NCBI RefSeq assembly: GCF_001701045.1
Contig: NZ_CP016757.1
Location: 1,171,501-1,235,500 of the forward strand
DNA from: Cloacibacillus porcorum
GTDB lineage: Bacteria > Synergistota > Synergistia > Synergistales > Synergistaceae
DNA length: 64,000 nucleotides
Reading direction: 5' to 3'
The notes below the pieces were generated by a model. The model saw only the letters and a program-made list of their open reading frames with translations, had not been told where the DNA came from and searched no databases. The translations under genes were made by a program, and so were the position numbers. Positions 34,552 to 45,940 of the stretch are shown piece after piece; the first letter of the stretch is position 1; the number at the start of each line of letters is the position of its first letter.

Positions 34552-35697
34552 ATGGATCACGAAGAGCTAAAAAAAATACGCGATGAGATAGACGTTACGA
34601 ACCAGTCTTTGATCTCCCTGTTTGAGCGCCGCATGGAGCTTGTCAACCGGGTCGCTGAATATAAAAGAGAGCGCGGTCTGCCCGTTTTCGACGGGGCGCG
34701 CGAAAAAGAGGTCCTTGAAAAATGCGCGGCATGGGTGAAGGCACCCCACTACCGCGAGAGCTGTCTCTGGATGATGGCGCGCGTGATAGAGGCGAGCCGC
34801 CGCTACGAAAATAAAAAGATAGCGGAGCAAAAAGAGGCGGAGCCCCGCGTAACAGCAGCCTCCGCGCCCTGCCGCCGTGTCGGCTATCAGGGCGTCCCCG
34901 GCTCATACAGCCACCAGGCCCTGCGGAGCTATTTCGCGGGACGTGATGTCAGCGAGCGTAACTTCAAGCTCTTTGGCGACGTCGTCTCCGCCGTCATGAG
35001 CGGCGAGGTCGACTGCGGCGTACTGCCGATCGAAAATTCCTCCACCGGCGGGATACTCGAGGTCTACGACCTGCTGCGTAAGAACGACTGCCACATCGTC
35101 GGCGAAAAGATCGTGAAGGTGGATCACAACCTGATGGCGGTCAGGGGCGCGAATATGGCGGACATCCGCAGGGTCTACTCGCATCCCCAGGGATTCAGCC
35201 AGTGCGCGGAATTCTTCGCCCAACACCGTGATTGGGAGCTGATTCCCTACTTCAACACCGCGAAGAGCGCGGAGATGGTGGCGCTTGAGGGGGACCTCTC
35301 GAAGGCCGCCGTCGCGAGCCGCGAGGCTGCGGAGCTCTACGGCCTTGAGATACTGGCCCCGAACATAAATTCCAGCGCCAGCAACTACACCCGCTTCGTC
35401 GTTATCGCCGCCGCCGCGGAACGCGACGAAGAGGCCGATAAGATAACCGTCGTCATCGGGCTCCGCCACGAACCGGGGGCGCTGTGCAGGGCGCTATCCT
35501 GCTTCTGCGGCAACGGCCTCAATCTGACCAACATCGAGTCGCGACCGCTTGAGGGCGGCTCATGGGAATACTTCTTCCACCTTGATTTCAGCGGCCACCT
35601 GCGCGAGAAGAACGTCGAGAGGGCGGTGGCCGAGCTTGAGAAAAATACCAGCTATCTGAAGATTCTCGGCAACTACCGCGCGGACCGCGCGGGTTAA
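34552..35697 (+). CDS. pheA: Bifunctional chorismate mutase / prephenate dehydratase (P-protein)
   Basis: 381 residues, GGAGGTAAGATGCG before the ATG. Three parts: AroQ-type chorismate mutase (1-90; RDEIDVTNQSLISLFERRMELVNRVAEY); prephenate dehydratase (about 105-285) with GYQGVPGSYSHQA, the active-site PIENSSTGGILEVYDL, SHPQGFSQC and the catalytic Thr in NYTRFVVI; and an ACT domain (about 297-375; LRHEPGALCRAL, NLTNIESRP) that binds Phe for feedback inhibition. It turns chorismate into phenylpyruvate. All catalytic motifs are intact, unlike the second copy across the intergenic region. Confidence 0.95.
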   Translation: MDHEELKKIRDEIDVTNQSLISLFERRMELVNRVAEYKRERGLPVFDGAREKEVLEKCAAWVKAPHYRESCLWMMARVIEASRRYENKKIAEQKEAEPRVTAASAPCRRVGYQGVPGSYSHQALRSYFAGRDVSERNFKLFGDVVSAVMSGEVDCGVLPIENSSTGGILEVYDLLRKNDCHIVGEKIVKVDHNLMAVRGANMADIRRVYSHPQGFSQCAEFFAQHRDWELIPYFNTAKSAEMVALEGDLSKAAVASREAAELYGLEILAPNINSSASNYTRFVVIAAAAERDEEADKITVVIGLRHEPGALCRALSCFCGNGLNLTNIESRPLEGGSWEYFFHLDFSGHLREKNVERAVAELEKNTSYLKILGNYRADRAG

Positions 35698-35946: not shown

Positions 35947-37599
35947 TTAGACTGCGCGGTAGCCGCCCTTGAGCAGCTCTATTATCGAATCGAGGGCGTT
36001 TACCACCTGGCTCAGCTCTCCGTCGTTGCGCACCTCGTAGTCCGCGACGGCGCGGTAGGTGGGCAGGCGGTCGGCGTAGAGTTTGTATATCTGTTTTGGG
36101 TCGCCCGCGAGCAGCGGCCTGTTCGAGAGGTCGACGCTCTCCAGTATCTCCTCTACGGGGCGGTTGACGAAGAAGACGTAGCCGGTGCGCCGCAGCGCAC
36201 GCGCGTTTTCCGGGCGCATCATCGTACCGCCGCCGGTGGAGATGACCGCGCCGCCGAGCGACGAGACCTTTTTCGACATCTCCGTCTCGGCGTCGCGGAA
36301 GTATTTTTCGCCGTTTTCCGCGAAGATCCTCGTGGTGTCTTTGCCCTCCTGCTCTTCGATGAGGGCGTCTGTATCGTAGTATTCCATGCCGATCTGAAGC
36401 GCGAGCGCCTTTCCGACGGCGTTTTTGCCGCTGCCCGGCATCCCCACGAGGACGATGTTGCGGCGCTTGCTCTTGTAGTTGCCGAGGATGCGCAGGAAGT
36501 CGCACTCCTGTTCGACGAGCGCGAGCGCCTTTTGGGTGTTGGCCTGCGCGATGTCTCCCGTGAAGTCGGTGAAGAATAGGTATTCAAAGTCCGCGCCGCC
36601 GACGGGGACGGATTCTATCTTGGAGAGGTTCAGGTGGTAGTCGGCGAAGATGCCGAGGACGCGCTGAAGCGCCCCCGCGCGGTGGCGGACGGTGAACGCC
36701 ATGCTGACCTTGTCCCCGCCGGGGGATATCTCGAATTTATCCGTGAGGATCACGAAGCGCGTACAGCTGCCGGGGTTGTCGCTGATGTAGGGGGCGATCA
36801 CCTCAAGCCCGTTCAGTTCGGCGGCGAAGCCCGAGGTGATGACCGCCTTGTGCGGCGAGTTTTCCTCGGCGATTTTTTTTACGCATTTAGAGGAGCTGAG
36901 GCTGGGAACGGCCTTGATTTCTGGATGGTCTTCAAGGAAGGCGCTGCAGCGCGCGAGCACCTGTTCGTGCGCGTGTATCTCCGTGATATCTTCAAGTCTT
37001 GCCCCTTTGGGGGCGGCGAGGCAGTCGTCAAGGCGGACGTTCTGTTCGCCCGCGATGTAGAGGCCGTATTTGTTTATCAGTTCGCGGACGCCGGGCATCG
37101 CCCCAGCGGTGTTTGATTCGAGGGGCAGCACGGCGTAATCAGCGTCGCCGTTTTTGACGGTGCGGCAGACTTTTTCGTAGGTGGAGCAGCCGCCGAAGCC
37201 GCCCGTGCCGAAGTAGGCCGCGGCGGCCTCGTGGCCGTAGGAGCCCTCGCCGCCCTTGTAGACGACGCGCGGGTTTTCCTTTCTCTTTGCCGCGCTGCGT
37301 ATCATTTCGCGCAGCCATAACCCCGTGATGTTGTCGCCGGTGACCACTTTATGCTGCACGGCGCGGCTGTTTTCGAGCATCATACGCCAAAAGCGGCGGA
37401 TGTACGGCACGTCGTCCTCGCGTTTCGCGAGCGATACCACGTGGTCGATTACGTTTTCTTCCTGCGCGGCGTCGGTGACGGGGATGTCCCTGTCCATTTT
37501 ATATTCGGCGATCGTGCGCGCTATCTCCAGCCGCCGCTCTATCAGCTCCAGGATTTTTTCGTCAAGTTCTCGTATCTCTTCTCTGTATTCTTTCAGCAT
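35947..37599 (-). CDS. Four-domain fusion: chorismate mutase - prephenate dehydratase-like - ACT - shikimate kinase
   Basis: 550 residues. 1-85: AroQ-type mutase (REIRELDEKILELIERRLEIARTIAEYKMDRD). About 110-290: prephenate dehydratase-like, but diverged: KGGEGSYGHEA, ESNTAGAMPG where ENSSTGG is expected, AHEQVLARC for SHPQALAQC; CTRFVIL is kept. About 300-375: ACT (VRHRAGALQRVL, NLSKIESVP). About 383-545: shikimate kinase with DTDALIEE, EKYFRDAE, STGGGTM and NRPLL; its Walker A reads GMPGSGKNAVG, with Asn where Ser/Thr is normal. It is the last gene of the tyrA-aroA-aroC operon, so it supplies the kinase step that comes before aroA. The dehydratase half may be weak or regulatory, since a normal pheA lies next door. 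Confidence 0.9.
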   Translation of the reverse strand: MLKEYREEIRELDEKILELIERRLEIARTIAEYKMDRDIPVTDAAQEENVIDHVVSLAKREDDVPYIRRFWRMMLENSRAVQHKVVTGDNITGLWLREMIRSAAKRKENPRVVYKGGEGSYGHEAAAAYFGTGGFGGCSTYEKVCRTVKNGDADYAVLPLESNTAGAMPGVRELINKYGLYIAGEQNVRLDDCLAAPKGARLEDITEIHAHEQVLARCSAFLEDHPEIKAVPSLSSSKCVKKIAEENSPHKAVITSGFAAELNGLEVIAPYISDNPGSCTRFVILTDKFEISPGGDKVSMAFTVRHRAGALQRVLGIFADYHLNLSKIESVPVGGADFEYLFFTDFTGDIAQANTQKALALVEQECDFLRILGNYKSKRRNIVLVGMPGSGKNAVGKALALQIGMEYYDTDALIEEQEGKDTTRIFAENGEKYFRDAETEMSKKVSSLGGAVISTGGGTMMRPENARALRRTGYVFFVNRPVEEILESVDLSNRPLLAGDPKQIYKLYADRLPTYRAVADYEVRNDGELSQVVNALDSIIELLKGGYRAV

Positions 37600-37642: not shown

Positions 37643-38746
37643 TCACTGCCGCCGCCCGCACAGGCCGCGTATCCCGTATAGTTTCTGGACTGCCTCCAGC
37701 AGCGCGAGCGCGGCGGCGGCCTCGATCACCGGTACGGCGCGGTGGACGATGCAGGGGTCGTGGCGTCCGGGAACGACGAGTTTCGCGTTTACGCGCTCTT
37801 CCATGTCGACGGTGTCCTGCTCGCGGGCGATCGAGGAGGTGGGGCGCAGCGCGGCGCGGAAGAGCAGCGGCGCGCCCGTCGAGATGCCGCCGCTGACGCC
37901 GCCGTTGTTGTTCGTCCTCATCGACACCCTGCCGTCCGCCATTTCCATGGGGTCGTTGGCCGCGCTTCCCCGCATCTCCGCAAAGGCGAAGCCGGCTCCG
38001 AATTCGATGCCCTTCACGCCGGGGACGGCGAAGCAGGCGCGCGAGATGAGGCTCTCAAGCGAGTCGGCGCCGGGCTCGCCGATACCGGCCTCCAGGCCGA
38101 GGGCGGCGCATTCTATCAGGCCGCCGAGAGAATCGCCCTCTCTTTTGGCCGCGGCGATCGCCTCGCGCATTTTCTCTCCCGCGCCGTCGTCGATCACCGG
38201 CAGCTCTTTGCGCGCCGCCGCCCGTAATACCGTTTCGGCGGTTTTGTCTTTCAGGAAGCCACCATCCGTAAGCGGGATGTCGCGGATTCCGCCGATCGCG
38301 GCGATATGCGCTCCCACGAAGATACCGCGGGCCGCCAGCAGCTGCTTTGCCACCGCGCCCGCAAAGACGAGCGGCGCGGTGAGGCGTCCCGAGAACTGGC
38401 CGCTGCCGCGCATGTCCGCGAAACCGTCGTAACGCGCGGCGGCGGTGTAGTCGGCGTGGCCGGGGCGCGGAAAGCGTTTGAGCAGCGAATAGTCGCCGGA
38501 GCGCGCGTCGGTGTTTTTTATCATCGCGCAGAGCGGCGCGCCGGTGGTGAAACCGCCGCAGAGCCCGCTGAGCACCTCGGGAACGTCGGCCTCTTTACGC
38601 GCCGTGGAGATGGCGCTTTTGCCGGGGGCTCTGCGCCCCATCTCGAGGGATATCTCCTCCATGTCCAGCGTAACGCCGGCGGGGATGTCGTTCAGCAGGA
38701 CGCCGATCGCCGGCCCGTGCGATTCTCCGAAGATTGAATATTTCAT
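37643..38746 (-). CDS. aroC: Chorismate synthase
   Basis: 367 residues; the ATG shares one base with the aroA stop (TAATG) and has AAGGAGG 8 bases upstream. Motifs: FGESHGPAIGVLLNDIPAG at the N-terminus, the RPGHADYTAAARY region, RGSGQFSGRLTAP, RTNNNGGVSGGISTG and RPTSSIA. It needs reduced FMN and makes chorismate from EPSP. Third gene of the operon. Confidence 0.95.
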   Translation of the reverse strand: MKYSIFGESHGPAIGVLLNDIPAGVTLDMEEISLEMGRRAPGKSAISTARKEADVPEVLSGLCGGFTTGAPLCAMIKNTDARSGDYSLLKRFPRPGHADYTAAARYDGFADMRGSGQFSGRLTAPLVFAGAVAKQLLAARGIFVGAHIAAIGGIRDIPLTDGGFLKDKTAETVLRAAARKELPVIDDGAGEKMREAIAAAKREGDSLGGLIECAALGLEAGIGEPGADSLESLISRACFAVPGVKGIEFGAGFAFAEMRGSAANDPMEMADGRVSMRTNNNGGVSGGISTGAPLLFRAALRPTSSIAREQDTVDMEERVNAKLVVPGRHDPCIVHRAVPVIEAAAALALLEAVQKLYGIRGLCGRRQ

Positions 38747-40029
38747 TATTGTGCCTCCTTATCCATTACAAAGCTGCCGCCCATCGCGCGGTATTCCTTC
38801 CAAAAGCCGGGGGCGCTCTTTTTCACGCAGTTTGCGTCGTCTATCGTAAGCTCCCCGCCGCATGCCGAGGCGGCGACGGCCAGGCTCATCGCGATACGGT
38901 GGTCGTTGTGGGCGCTTGCCGCGCCGCCGCGCAGGCCGCCGCCTCCGGCGACGGTGAGCGAGTCCGTACCCTCTTTTACCTCCGCTCCCAGCGCGGCCAG
39001 TTCGGCGGCCATCGCCGCCAGACGGTCGCTCTCTTTGATGCGCAGACGGGCCGCGTTGATAAGCCGCGTTTCGCCCTCCGCGCAGGCGGCGAGCACGGCG
39101 AGTATCGGAAAGAGGTCCGGGGTCTGCGAGACGTCGATCTCCGTGCCGCGCAGCTTTGAGGGGACGGCGTGGAGTTTATCGCCGGACCATTCCACGGTTG
39201 CCCCCATCCGGCGCAGCAGCTCCGCGATCTTTGCGTCTCCCTGTTTGCTCTCTTTTTTCAGGCCGGAGAGCGCCGCGCCGCCGCCGAGCGTTCCCGCCGC
39301 GAGCCAGAAGGCCGCGTGGCTGAAATCTCCCTCGACGGAGACGGCGGCGGGGGAGAAGCGCTGGTTTCCGGGAATGTTCAGCGCGCAGCCGCGTTTATTT
39401 TCCTCCCATTCGGCGCTGACGCCGAACTCCGCGAGCGCCGCGAGGGTGAGGTCTATGTAGCTTCGGCTCTCAAGCCGCGTGGTAATCTCTATGCGGGAGT
39501 CTCCGCCCAGCGTCGGGAGGGCGAAGAGCAGTCCCGAGATGAACTGGCTTGAGACGTCGCCGCGTATTTTAAAGAGGCCGGGGCGCAGCCGCCCGCACAG
39601 TTCGATATAGTCTTCTTTTTGGATAAATTCGATCTCCCGCTCCGCGAAGAGGCGCGCGTATTCCTCCTGAGGGCGGCTCAGCAGCCGTCCCCGCCCCGTG
39701 AACCGCCGCCGCCTTCCGTCGAGCGCCAGCGGGATGAGAAAGCGCAGGGTGCTTCCCGATTCGCCGCAGTCAAGGGGCGCCGTATCATTTGATACGCTTT
39801 TTTTTGAGCGTGTTGCGAGCATGTCGCCCTTCAGCTCCATTTCGCAGCCCAGCCCCCGCAGCGCGCGGCAGGTCGCCATTATGTCCTCGCTGAGCCCCAG
39901 GAAGCGGACCCGCGAATCTCCCGCGAGCGCCGCGCAGATCGCCAGCCGGTGCGACATGCTTTTGCTCGGCATGATCTTTATCTCTCCGGAGAGGGGCTTG
40001 GGGGTTATCGTCACGCTAACATTTTTCAT
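38746..40029 (-). CDS. aroA: 3-phosphoshikimate 1-carboxyvinyltransferase (EPSP synthase)
   Basis: 427 residues, start overlapping the tyrA stop (ATGA). Motifs: MPSKSMSHRLAICAALA (phosphate and PEP binding), LDCGESGSTLRFLIPLAL, SRPQEEY, GDVSSQFISGLLFALP, and near the C-terminus RIKESDRLAAMAAEL and HNDHRIAMSLAVAA. It condenses shikimate-3-phosphate with PEP. The active-site loop has Gly-Glu-Ser-Gly-Ser as in normal enzymes. Confidence 0.95.
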   Translation of the reverse strand: MKNVSVTITPKPLSGEIKIMPSKSMSHRLAICAALAGDSRVRFLGLSEDIMATCRALRGLGCEMELKGDMLATRSKKSVSNDTAPLDCGESGSTLRFLIPLALDGRRRRFTGRGRLLSRPQEEYARLFAEREIEFIQKEDYIELCGRLRPGLFKIRGDVSSQFISGLLFALPTLGGDSRIEITTRLESRSYIDLTLAALAEFGVSAEWEENKRGCALNIPGNQRFSPAAVSVEGDFSHAAFWLAAGTLGGGAALSGLKKESKQGDAKIAELLRRMGATVEWSGDKLHAVPSKLRGTEIDVSQTPDLFPILAVLAACAEGETRLINAARLRIKESDRLAAMAAELAALGAEVKEGTDSLTVAGGGGLRGGAASAHNDHRIAMSLAVAASACGGELTIDDANCVKKSAPGFWKEYRAMGGSFVMDKEAQ

Positions 40030-40910
40030 CGGGCCGCCTCCTTTGCCGCCGTGTAAGGCGTTTTCAGATATTCTTCTTTGCGCCGTGTGGAGGAGGCGAG
40101 CGCCGCCGCCAGCTCACTTTGGTCTCCCGCCTCTACGAGTCTTCTCAGCACCGCAATGTTATCTTCCAGCTCCGCGAGGACGCCGCCCAGCGGGGCCGCG
40201 TTCATGGAGAAGAGCTCGCTCCACATCTCGGGGTTAAGCGTGCCGACCCGGGTGAGGTCGCGAAAGGAGCCGCCCTCGAATCCTTTGCTCTCAAAGAGCA
40301 GCCCGCTGTTCAGGATGGCGGCGGCGAGCACGTGCGCCATCTGGCTGGTGTAGGCGATCATCCGGTCGTGTATCTCCGGCGTCGTCTCGATGACGCGCGC
40401 CGCCCCCGCGTAGGCCGCCATCTCACGGAGCAGGGAGAGCGCCTCGCGCGAGTTTTTCTCATGCGGCGTGATGATAAAGTTGCAGCCCGTAAAAAGTTTT
40501 CCGTCGGAGGCCGCGTAGCCGGAACTCTCGCGTCCCGCCATCGGGTGCGCGCCAAGGAACTCCGCGCCTGCCGGCATTGACCTGCGCGCCTCTTCTATCA
40601 AGGGACCCTTGATGCCGGTCAGGTCGCTCCAGAGCGCGCCCTCTTTGGCGCGGCGGGCGCAGCCGCGCAGGAAGTCCAGCGCGGCGCGCGGATAGAGGGC
40701 GATCACGACGAGGTCGGCGTCGAGCGCCTCCTCAGCGTTTGTTTCATCCAGCACGTATCCGCTGTCTATCACGCCTTCGGCCAGCGCTCTCTCAAGCACC
40801 GCGGCGTTGGTCTCGACGCCGCAGATAGCGGCGTTCCGCCAGCCGCGCAGGGCCTTCGCGAGCGAGGCTCCCATCAGTCCCAGACCCGCGATGGTAATTT
40901 TGAACCCCAT
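40026..40910 (-). CDS. tyrA: Prephenate dehydrogenase
   Basis: 294 residues from ATG 40910, with AGAGGCGG upstream; the longer frame to 40958 runs into the attenuator hairpin. NAD-binding ITIAGLGLMGASLAKAL at the N-terminus, LVVIALYPRAALDFL, WSDLTGIKGPLIEE, FLGAHPMAGRESSGY (with the catalytic His), and SQMAHVLAAAI. It forms 4-hydroxyphenylpyruvate for tyrosine. No ACT domain, so feedback control may rest on the leader-peptide attenuator immediately upstream. First gene of the operon. Confidence 0.94.
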   Translation of the reverse strand: MGFKITIAGLGLMGASLAKALRGWRNAAICGVETNAAVLERALAEGVIDSGYVLDETNAEEALDADLVVIALYPRAALDFLRGCARRAKEGALWSDLTGIKGPLIEEARRSMPAGAEFLGAHPMAGRESSGYAASDGKLFTGCNFIITPHEKNSREALSLLREMAAYAGAARVIETTPEIHDRMIAYTSQMAHVLAAAILNSGLLFESKGFEGGSFRDLTRVGTLNPEMWSELFSMNAAPLGGVLAELEDNIAVLRRLVEAGDQSELAAALASSTRRKEEYLKTPYTAAKEAAR

Positions 40911-40945
40911 AAGTACCGCCTCTTTCCAGTTGCCGTCTTCCTCGT

Positions 40946-40980
40946 AAAATAAAATCACCCGGGGCCTTCGCTCCGGGTGA
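40946..40980 (-). terminator. Attenuator terminator in front of tyrA
   Basis: On the minus strand, TCACCCGG-AGCGAAGGCC-CCGGGTGA is followed by TTTTATTTT, 36 bases before the tyrA ATG and 42 bases after the leader-peptide stop. It can end transcription before the aro genes. Confidence 0.85.
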
Positions 40981-41021
40981 GATATCTTTTAAGACGGTTT
41001 TTATATATCACACAAAAGAGC

Positions 41022-41111
41022 TCAAGCCATAACAAATTGACTGCGGCTAAAATAATAGTCCCAGTTCCAGCCTGTAAAGTAAAAATAGGAGCTCTTAAGG
41101 TTTGTTGCCAT
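41022..41111 (-). CDS. Aromatic leader peptide of the tyrA-aroA-aroC operon (29 codons)
   Basis: ATG at 41111 with GGAG 8 bases upstream, TGA ending at 41022. The peptide has 10 aromatic residues of 29: the first twelve are MATNLKSSYFYF; then Trp at 15 and 17, Tyr at 19 and 20, Phe at 21 and 26. It lies between a promoter (41150-41179) and the terminator before tyrA. AAGAGCTC in codons 6-8 (41096-41089) is the exact complement of GAGCTCTT just over the stop (41023-41016), so ribosome position can change RNA folding. This is the layout of trp- and pheA-type attenuators: shortage of charged Tyr, Phe or Trp tRNA stalls the ribosome and should let transcription go on. Found by reading the strand. 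Confidence 0.88.
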   Translation of the reverse strand: MATNLKSSYFYFTGWNWDYYFSRSQFVMA

Positions 41112-41149
41112 CGATTTTTCTCCGTTTCCGCAAAAATCATTTCCCGTGT

Positions 41150-41179
41150 ATTTAACACCCGAAAATATATTTTTGTCAA
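41150..41179 (-). promoter_or_regulatory. Promoter of the aro operon leader
   Basis: Minus strand TTGACA (41179-41174), 18-base spacer, TTAAAT (41155-41150). Start near 41143, about 32 bases before the leader ATG. Confidence 0.75.
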
Positions 41180-41214
41180 TGCTGTGGCTGATTTTCCACT
41201 CTCCGGCAAAGAAA

Positions 41215-41243
41215 ATGGCGGGTGCAGAATGCGCCCGCCATTT
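41215..41243 (-). terminator. Terminator after the ThiS/MoaD-like gene
   Basis: AAATGGCGGG, 11-base loop, CCCGCCATTTTC on the minus strand. Confidence 0.85.
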
Positions 41244-41271
41244 AGATACTACGATGTCTCCCCGGCGGGAT

Positions 41272-41475
41272 TTAACCGCCGCTGATGTTGTGGATCACCT
41301 GCACATTTGCTCCGTCTGGAATCTTCGCCTCCGAATAGCGGCTCTTGTCAACGACATTGTCGTCGACCCATACGGCGAGCATCTTGAAGGTGAAATTCTT
41401 GTCGTCAAGAAGCTGCTGTACCGTGAGCCCCTCTCTCCAAGGCGATTTTTCTCCGTTGACGGTTATCATGCGCAT
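41272..41475 (-). CDS. ThiS/MoaD-like sulfur carrier protein
   Basis: 67 residues ending in Gly-Gly (NISGG), the end that is adenylated and turned into a thiocarboxylate. Small beta-grasp pattern: MITVNG, LTVQQLLDDKNF, LAVWVDDNVV, IPDGANVQVIHNISGG. It follows the aldehyde:ferredoxin oxidoreductase gene by 15 bases, so a role in making the tungstopterin (the MoaD role) is more likely than thiamine. AAGGAG is close to the first ATG; ATG 41469 is the alternative start. Confidence 0.82.
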   Translation of the reverse strand: MRMITVNGEKSPWREGLTVQQLLDDKNFTFKMLAVWVDDNVVDKSRYSEAKIPDGANVQVIHNISGG

Positions 41476-44387: not shown

Positions 44388-44474
44388 GTCAGGGTGGCGG
44401 AACTGGTAGACGCGCTAGATTCAGGATCTAGTGAGCATTAGCTCATAGGGGTTCAATTCCCCTCCTTGACACCA
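44388..44474 (+). tRNA. tRNA-Leu (anticodon CAG)
   Basis: 87 bases with CCA encoded. Acceptor GTCAGGG/CCTTGAC, long variable arm (GAGCATTAGCTC), T-loop GGTTCAATTCC, anticodon loop TTCAGGA. Confidence 0.95.
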
Positions 44475-45555: not shown

Positions 45556-45641
45556 GCCGGGGTGGCGGAAAGGTAGACGCACGGGACTTAAAATCCTGCG
45601 AACGCAAGTTCGTGCGGGTTCAAATCCCGCTCTCGGCACCA
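45556..45641 (+). tRNA. tRNA-Leu (anticodon UAA)
   Basis: 86 bases with CCA. Anticodon stem CGGGA/TCCTG with loop CTTAAAA; long variable arm CGAACGCAAGTTCGT. Confidence 0.95.
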
Positions 45642-45653
45642 CAATTTTAACGT

Positions 45654-45730
45654 CGCGGGGTGGAGCAGTACGGAAGCTCGTCGGGCTCATAACCCGAAGG
45701 TCATAGGTTCAAATCCTATCCCCGCAACCA
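45654..45730 (+). tRNA. Initiator tRNA-fMet (anticodon CAU)
   Basis: 77 bases with CCA. C1 opposite A72 is unpaired and three G-C pairs (GGG/CCC) border the anticodon loop CTCATAA: both are initiator marks. Confidence 0.95.
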
Positions 45731-45737
45731 TTTTTTT

Positions 45738-45814
45738 GGCGCTGTAGCTCAGTTGGCTAGAGCATTCGGTTCATACCCGACAGGTCACTGGTTCAAGTCC
45801 AGTTAGCGCCACCA
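45738..45814 (+). tRNA. tRNA-Met, elongator (anticodon CAU)
   Basis: 77 bases with CCA. Acceptor GGCGCTG/TAGCGCC, anticodon loop TTCATAC. CAU could also be tRNA-Ile2 (lysidine-modified); the arm CGGTTCATACCCG is closer to elongator Met. Confidence 0.9.
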
Positions 45815-45824
45815 GAAATAATCG

Positions 45825-45848
45825 GCCTCTCAGAGATGAGAGGCTTTT
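45825..45848 (+). terminator. Terminator after tRNA-Met
   Basis: GCCTCTC-AGAGAT-GAGAGGC then TTTT. Confidence 0.85.
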
Positions 45849-45862
45849 ATATCAAAAATTTT

Positions 45863-45940
45863 CGGGGCGTAGCGCAGTCTGGTTAGCGCGCTTGGTTCGG
45901 GACCAAGAGGTCGGAAGTTCAAATCTTCTCGCCCCGACCA
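45863..45940 (+). tRNA. tRNA-Pro (anticodon CGG)
   Basis: 78 bases with CCA. Acceptor CGGGGCG/CGCCCCG, anticodon stem CTTGG/CCAAG, loop TTCGGGA. The AT-rich island starts right after this gene. Confidence 0.95.

Follow-up and report, generated by a model that had tools for sequence, protein, structure and literature searches.

The window analysed here is a stretch of 64,000 nt from Cloacibacillus porcorum (contig NZ_CP016757.1, positions 1,171,501 to 1,235,500). Its minus strand carries an operon that, according to family matches, covers the pathway from shikimate through the prephenate products:

40026–40910, minus strand: tyrA, prephenate dehydrogenase, the first gene of the operon (PF02153, PF20463)
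38746–40029, minus strand: aroA, EPSP synthase (TIGR01356, above cut-off)
37643–38746, minus strand: aroC, chorismate synthase (TIGR00033, above cut-off)
35947–37599, minus strand: chorismate mutase, prephenate dehydratase, ACT and shikimate kinase domains in one frame (PF01817, PF00800, PF01842, PF01202)

Translation of tyrA most likely starts at the ATG at 40910; an alternative, longer start (GTG at 40958) falls within the terminator described below. The fusion gene is adjoined by a second chorismate mutase–prephenate dehydratase gene (34552–35697, plus strand). On the other side, five tRNA genes (44388–44471 and 45556–45937, plus strand) lie near aldehyde ferredoxin oxidoreductase genes that adjoin the operon, and five tRNA genes are also found near the corresponding leader of the congener considered below.

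Upstream of tyrA, all elements of a putative transcription attenuator could be located on the minus strand by reading the sequence:

41174–41179, minus strand: −35 hexamer TTGACA, 6/6 to consensus, unchanged in the congener G134
41150–41155, minus strand: −10-like hexamer TTAAAT, 4/6 to consensus, spacer of 18 nt, unchanged in the congener
41120–41123, minus strand: Shine-Dalgarno sequence GGAG, 8 nt upstream of the leader ATG, conserved in the congener
41022–41111, minus strand: leader ORF starting with ATG, 29 amino acids, MATNLKSSYFYFTGWNWDYYFSRSQFVMA, with the frame kept in the congener and analogous ORFs across the phylum
41089–41096, minus strand: region 1, AAGAGCTC, codons 6–8, pairing with 41023–41016 in the fold, identical in the congener
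41049–41087, minus strand: codons 9–21, holding nine of the ten aromatic codons (F26 lies outside), the proposed stall region
41040–41065, minus strand: predicted hairpin P1, which has Tyr-Tyr-Phe codons at the loop and a position similar to that of the hairpin that covaries in the commonest leader type
41005–41027, minus strand: region 2, spanning the leader stop codon, able to pair with region 1 or region 3
40964–40985, minus strand: region 3, comprising the terminator's 5' side and loop, with which region 2 can form the antiterminator
40955–40980, minus strand: G+C-rich intrinsic terminator stem-loop (pairing 3:4), −18.4 kcal/mol, stem unchanged in the congener
40946–40954, minus strand: T tract of the terminator; the hairpin is followed by TTTTATTTT

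The preliminary description of this region, which gave no strand, had named a promoter, an ORF of 29 codons with ten Tyr, Phe and Trp codons, and a terminator with a T run before tyrA. These elements are all present, albeit with a weak −10 hexamer, which was missed by the promoter scanner since that program requires A at position 2. We infer that the TTGACA/TTAAAT pair is used as a promoter. The aromatic codons are Y9, F10, Y11, F12, W15, W17, Y19, Y20, F21 and F26, and the TGA stop codon (41024–41022) lies within region 2. With nine aromatic residues in 15 codons, the leader has the highest aromatic density among ORFs of 15–60 amino acids in the window; eight other ORFs reach a density of 7 or 8, so that density alone proves little. 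A terminator scan of positions 40700–41400 returned one terminator-like site, listed for the plus strand, where a T run follows too; shuffled sequences average 0.9 such sites. Position and conservation, rather than density or terminator count, carry the case for the leader.

Searches against Rfam 15 gave no family match at the leader and just two chance matches, below threshold and not in the leader ORF, while 18 loci of relatives yielded tRNAs only. The T-box family (RF00230), whose members likewise read tRNA charging and control termination, has no match at the leader or anywhere in the 64-kb window. A riboswitch or T-box reading of the leader was dropped on the lack of an Rfam match there. 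A plus-strand reading was also dropped, with a fold z-score of −1.2 and the leader ORF on the minus strand.

The minus-strand leader RNA folds, with no ribosome present, at −50.4 kcal/mol (z −2.2), a value equalled or bettered by 7 of 200 shuffles. The 8-base complementary segments previously noted on both sides of the aromatic codons, AAGAGCTC (41096–41089) and GAGCTCTT (41023–41016), do pair in this fold. The preliminary description had spoken of a complete attenuator but had named no antiterminator; we can now place one, in which 41027–41005 pairs with the 5' side and loop of the terminator at 40985–40964 through the pieces GCTT/AGGC, GCTCT/GGAGC, GTG/CAC and GATAT/ATATC. The three pairings are mutually exclusive in the predicted folds, with computed energies of −23.7 kcal/mol for the 1:2 region (including a nested hairpin), −17.2 kcal/mol for 2:3 and −18.4 kcal/mol for the terminator. 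Of 200 shuffles, 12 equal the 2:3 duplex, which is only marginally better than chance and on its own no strong evidence; hairpin P1 (−8.2 kcal/mol) is equalled by 4 of 300. For the RNA made ahead of the terminator 3' arm, the computed energy is −24.7 to −11.7 kcal/mol with a ribosome modelled on codons 9–26 and −2.5 kcal/mol with a ribosome at the stop codon. Folding with and without a ribosome had been proposed as a check; in the equilibrium model the terminator prevails at all eleven ribosome positions tried. Any attenuator switch must therefore be kinetic.

In attenuators of the trpL, pheL and pheST type, control follows from competing 1:2, 2:3 and 3:4 pairings, and a ribosome that has finished translation covers region 2 from the stop codon. 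The C. porcorum leader shares the trp-type layout in having its stop codon within region 2, and we propose that it would operate as follows. RNA polymerase would start near 41143, and a ribosome would begin translating the leader of 29 codons. A shortage of charged tRNA-Tyr, tRNA-Phe or possibly tRNA-Trp would make the ribosome stall within codons 9–21. A stall on the first of these codons would cover region 1 (41096–41089), which otherwise holds region 2. The freed region 2 (41027–41005) could then pair with region 3 (40985–40964) before the terminator is complete, and the resulting antiterminator would permit read-through into tyrA, aroA, aroC and the chorismate mutase–prephenate dehydratase–shikimate kinase gene, provided that the kinetics are suitable. 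With an ample supply of charged tRNA, the ribosome would proceed to the stop codon (41024–41022) and cover region 2, and the terminator (40980–40955) would form. If the leader is not translated at all, pairing 1:2 and the terminator would form.

Several features of the leader correspond to what such an attenuator comprises: a short ORF with a ribosome-binding site between promoter-like hexamers and the operon, clustered Tyr and Phe codons ahead of genes that make the precursors of Tyr and Phe, a terminator between the ORF and tyrA, a stop codon inside region 2, and aromatic leaders that precede similar genes in relatives. As for the antiterminator, that of C. porcorum is kept in the congener but matched by 12 of 200 shuffles; in the commonest leader type it is strong, and its helix covaries. 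Points against attenuation are the weak shuffle results for 2:3 in C. porcorum and its congener, the advantage of the terminator at equilibrium, the weak −10 hexamer, the prospect that stalls at codons 17–21 would leave region 1 uncovered, the lack of a match of either leader to the covariance model described below, and the 20 of 82 scanned genomes that show neither a dense ORF nor a match to that model. Taking anatomy and comparison together, we conclude that the C. porcorum tyrA leader is very probably a ribosome-mediated transcription attenuator. The comparative support is good for the attenuator family and moderate for the particular switch in C. porcorum.

The within-genus comparison involves two genomes, as G134 is the only other member of the genus in the phylum search; the TyrA proteins of the two are 80% identical. 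The leader regions align closely, with identical −35, −10 and GGAG elements. The congener leader likely starts at GTG and encodes the peptide VAINFKSSSFYFTCWNWDYYFSLSQFAMV, which retains nine of the ten aromatic codons: Y9 is replaced by Ser, eight of the nine aromatic codons within codons 9–21 and also F26 are unchanged, and Phe is now encoded at codon 6. The congener shares region 1, the GAGCTCTT segment and the terminator stem with C. porcorum without change, and two differences within 2:3 preserve pairing (C-G to U-G and U-G to U-A). The congener 2:3 duplex is matched by 37 of 200 shuffles, and its P1 (−8.9 kcal/mol) by 2 of 300. The earlier proposal had been staked on conservation of the aromatic codons in relatives, and this check did not refute it: the leader is conserved in the congener, and comparable leaders recur across the phylum.

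We searched 185 genomes of the Synergistota for TyrA, which was matched in 79, and likewise for DAHP synthase. The 100 loci around these matches and the window locus made up a set of 101, of which 94 were scored and seven skipped for lack of a hit or because of a contig end. Sense ORFs of 10–60 amino acids in the 400 nt before aroF or tyrA were scanned for aromatic residues per 15 codons. A density of at least 7 was reached in 33 of the 94 upstream regions, whereas the antisense strand gave 1 of 94 and dinucleotide shuffling predicts 0.40; for a density of at least 6, the corresponding values are 44, 4 and 3.15. These counts refer to places and not to events, and related genomes are not independent. 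The dense ORFs precede aroF-tyrA or tyrA-aroA operons. Among 80 tyrA loci of other phyla, with titles that include Clostridiales, Oscillospiraceae and Bacteroidaceae, the 600 nt upstream contained an ORF with a density of at least 6 in a single case and with at least 7 in none. Because gene starts were called by rule, the 400 nt scanned do not include every real leader (those of G021, G023, G112 and G120, for example, fall outside).

By sequence, the Synergistota leaders fall into several types. Our script called a terminator after 40 of 44 leaders and none for L122, L132, L138 and L141; in L122 and L132 a hairpin with a T run is visible by eye but falls below the script's rules. Ranked against 200 shuffles, the duplex of regions 2 and 3 came among the best 5 for 23 of the 40 leaders with a called terminator. 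Two listed peptides should be read with care: that of L186 (genome G013) is probably in the wrong frame, as the covariance model described below (R2) puts a related leader there, as in its relative G011, and that of L113 begins at a non-start codon. Counting either a dense ORF or an R2 match, a leader was found in 62 of 82 scanned genomes and neither in the other 20. In seven of these 20 (G100, G142, G146, G150, G151, G156 and G159), the region before tyrA does contain an aromatic ORF of shorter length or a pairing that resembles an antiterminator.

In the commonest type, 18 leaders from several families share a peptide core close to YYFTxGQWRYYASGxxxRGNP, in which the GQWR and ASG codons build P1 and the RGNP codons form the 5' strand of the antiterminator. 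The antiterminator helix is paired in 187 of 197 alignment cells, with five positions changed on both sides, in an alignment whose strands were picked by hand, in which the second part of L191 was entered by hand, and which omits L201 (identical there to L196) and L145 (anchored at the wrong place). Sliding this helix by one or two positions lowers pairing to 32–60%. P1 is paired in 94.4% of 180 cells (24–48% when slid), with three pairs changed on both sides, a number reached by 2 of 500 shuffles.

The covariance model R2, built from P1 and the antiterminator 5' strand and applied with a cut-off of E ≤ 0.001, matches 38 of the 185 Synergistota genomes, 20 of which contributed no training sequence. 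Its 46 places comprise 34 before DAHP synthase (within 900 nt upstream of the match, on the same strand), eight before aroA, one before aroE and three at contig ends. The places before aroA or aroE are the second in their genome, except in G102, where it is the sole place. One family (f6, L278–L286) has a leader copy before aroA-aroC in eight genomes and before aroE in one; in these extra copies the Trp codon is mostly replaced and the hairpin around the Tyr codons is retained. R2 does not match C. porcorum (G000) or its congener. The resemblance of YFYFTGWNWDYYFS to YYYFTGGQWRYYAS, the P1 hairpin and the gene context are only suggestive of kinship between the leaders of this genus and the commonest type, and the C. 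porcorum leader may share common descent with the other leader types.

The stop codon of the commonest type (L185, L210, L216 and L235) lies roughly 20–35 nt beyond the antiterminator strand, so that it is doubtful whether a ribosome halted there would mask this strand; masking would need ribosomes translating through it. We see about an even chance that the Synergistota hold an old, phylum-wide attenuator family in which a single leader reads the charging of tRNA-Tyr, tRNA-Phe and often tRNA-Trp, with a commonest type unlike the textbook layout and, in some genomes, two copies, one before aroF and one before aroA or aroE. In that type the covarying hairpin would sit on Trp and Tyr codons with Tyr codons in its loop, and the antiterminator strand would lie inside the leader ORF, so that a ribosome passing along this strand during translation would itself switch the RNA.

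One such leader is located on a plasmid. In Thermovirga lienii, aroF-tyrA-aroA and a leader lie on the 31.9-kb plasmid pTLIE01 (L294, CP003097.1, 12800–19500), to which the G179 locus corresponds over 6,701 of 6,701 bases at 100% identity. The leader ORF is annotated as a 'hypothetical protein' (Tlie_1900), and the leader reading would account for this orphan. A search of plasmids with the operon as query gave three short matches, of which the annotated one is aroC.

The commonest type conserves its core GQWRYYASG..RGNP beyond what aromatic codons alone would need, and this favours a different explanation, in which the nascent peptide itself stalls the ribosome, for instance on binding a free aromatic amino acid, and tRNA charging is irrelevant. 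TnaC is an arrest peptide of this kind. We consider such arrest very unlikely: the conserved residues fall where the RNA forms its covarying helices, the peptide is altered (DQGYYYYPLV) in the second copies, those ahead of aroA, with a stable hairpin kept at the same place, and C. porcorum has just part of the conserved core.

Attenuation by tRNA charging in C. porcorum must also be seen against the rest of its pathway. Family searches of the C. porcorum genome found no TrpE (PF00425; found in 14/14 known genomes used as a control), no type II DAHP synthase (PF01474; 2/14) and no dehydroquinate synthase (PF01959 and PF01761; 3/14 and 11/14), and for type I DAHP synthase no match beyond one kdsA-like gene. 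The latter is the single PF00793 match; it adjoins a KpsF-like gene, and we take it to be kdsA from this context. TrpC (PF00218) is present in what is presumably a trpDCFBA run (L244, G000:C1:2026000–2036500) without trpE or trpG. This run lies directly behind a T-box: RF00230 has eight matches in the genome, one of which (2033833–2034072) is directly upstream of trpD. It thus seems that tRNA charge is sensed differently in the two aromatic branches, by a T-box ahead of the trp genes and by a leader peptide ahead of tyrA. The genome also encodes three AroE-type proteins, whose genes presumably lie near transporter genes, as their neighbours resemble TRAP and Tct components. Since the operon is complete from shikimate and the entry steps were not found, C. 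porcorum may start aromatic synthesis from imported shikimate or quinate. These absences also bear on the earlier claim that the leader senses all three products: the charging of tRNA-Trp can still be read by it, but since searches found neither the entry steps nor TrpE, Trp cannot simply be called the product sensed and is not a demonstrated product of the controlled branch.

The same absences would suit a leader that works in relatives and has become a weakened relic in C. porcorum, where the pathway entry steps and trpE are lost and control is partial or gone, and the antiterminators of C. porcorum and its congener are indeed weak beside those of relatives. Such decay is, in our judgement, highly improbable, because codons, pairing segments and terminator are kept between species whose TyrA proteins differ at one residue in five, and because control still makes sense for an operon spanning shikimate to the prephenate products. 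A chance aromatic ORF beside an ordinary terminator that ends upstream transcripts or lowers operon expression, as the eight other dense ORFs of the window and the 0.9 terminator sites expected by chance might suggest, is an extremely remote prospect given that the leader is conserved in the congener and that leaders recur at the same place in other genera.

If the tyrA leader is a ribosome-mediated attenuator, it would give a phylum of anaerobes RNA-level control of the common aromatic pathway. Within the C. porcorum genome, two tRNA-charge sensors of different kinds, a T-box and a translated leader, would serve neighbouring branches of one pathway. The commonest type would represent a testable variant of the attenuation layout. 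Ribosome-mediated attenuation is known in principle; its place in Synergistota aro operons is new, apparently phylum-wide and not in Rfam 15. We found no aromatic leader described for these operons in open PMC papers. The earlier statement on novelty needs correcting in that AroR and aromatic uORF candidates from one RNA-discovery pipeline, discussed below, are already in print. The accessible text of PMC11109978 holds nothing on Synergistota aromatic leaders, that of PMC9413887 describes HisR control of histidine genes in Synergistetes and leader peptides in Firmicutes lineages, and that of PMC1262725 reports that, in Actinobacteria, conserved RNA structures were not seen upstream of the operons for phenylalanine or tyrosine.

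Among candidates found by comparison, uORFC-13-1 (PMC8632094) is, in the portion of that paper available, a short Phe-codon ORF before an intrinsic terminator and aroF, known from 24 representatives in Acholeplasma and environmental sequences only; like the leaders described here, it was discovered by comparison alone. Stav et al. 2019 (PMC6429828) list two shikimate-associated Phe/Tyr uORF candidates from a set of five genomes that includes Thermovirga lienii; the part of the text at hand gives no genome of origin, and the T. lienii accession is NC_016148.1, whereas the leader found here lies on the plasmid. The E. coli leaders trpL, pheL and pheST, as presented in sections of a review (PMC11802643), sense a single amino acid and control a terminal branch, unlike the C. 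porcorum leader. A further counterpart, located upstream of aroF in C. glutamicum, is the leader AroR with its codons Phe-Tyr-Phe (Neshat et al. 2014, as cited in the same sections of PMC11802643). Like the proposed C. porcorum attenuator, it acts by ribosome-mediated attenuation of a common-pathway operon through a leader with Phe and Tyr codons. By its description there, AroR is set apart by its phylum and by its codons, given as Phe-Tyr-Phe only, in contrast to the nine or ten, including Trp, of the leaders in C. porcorum and its congener.
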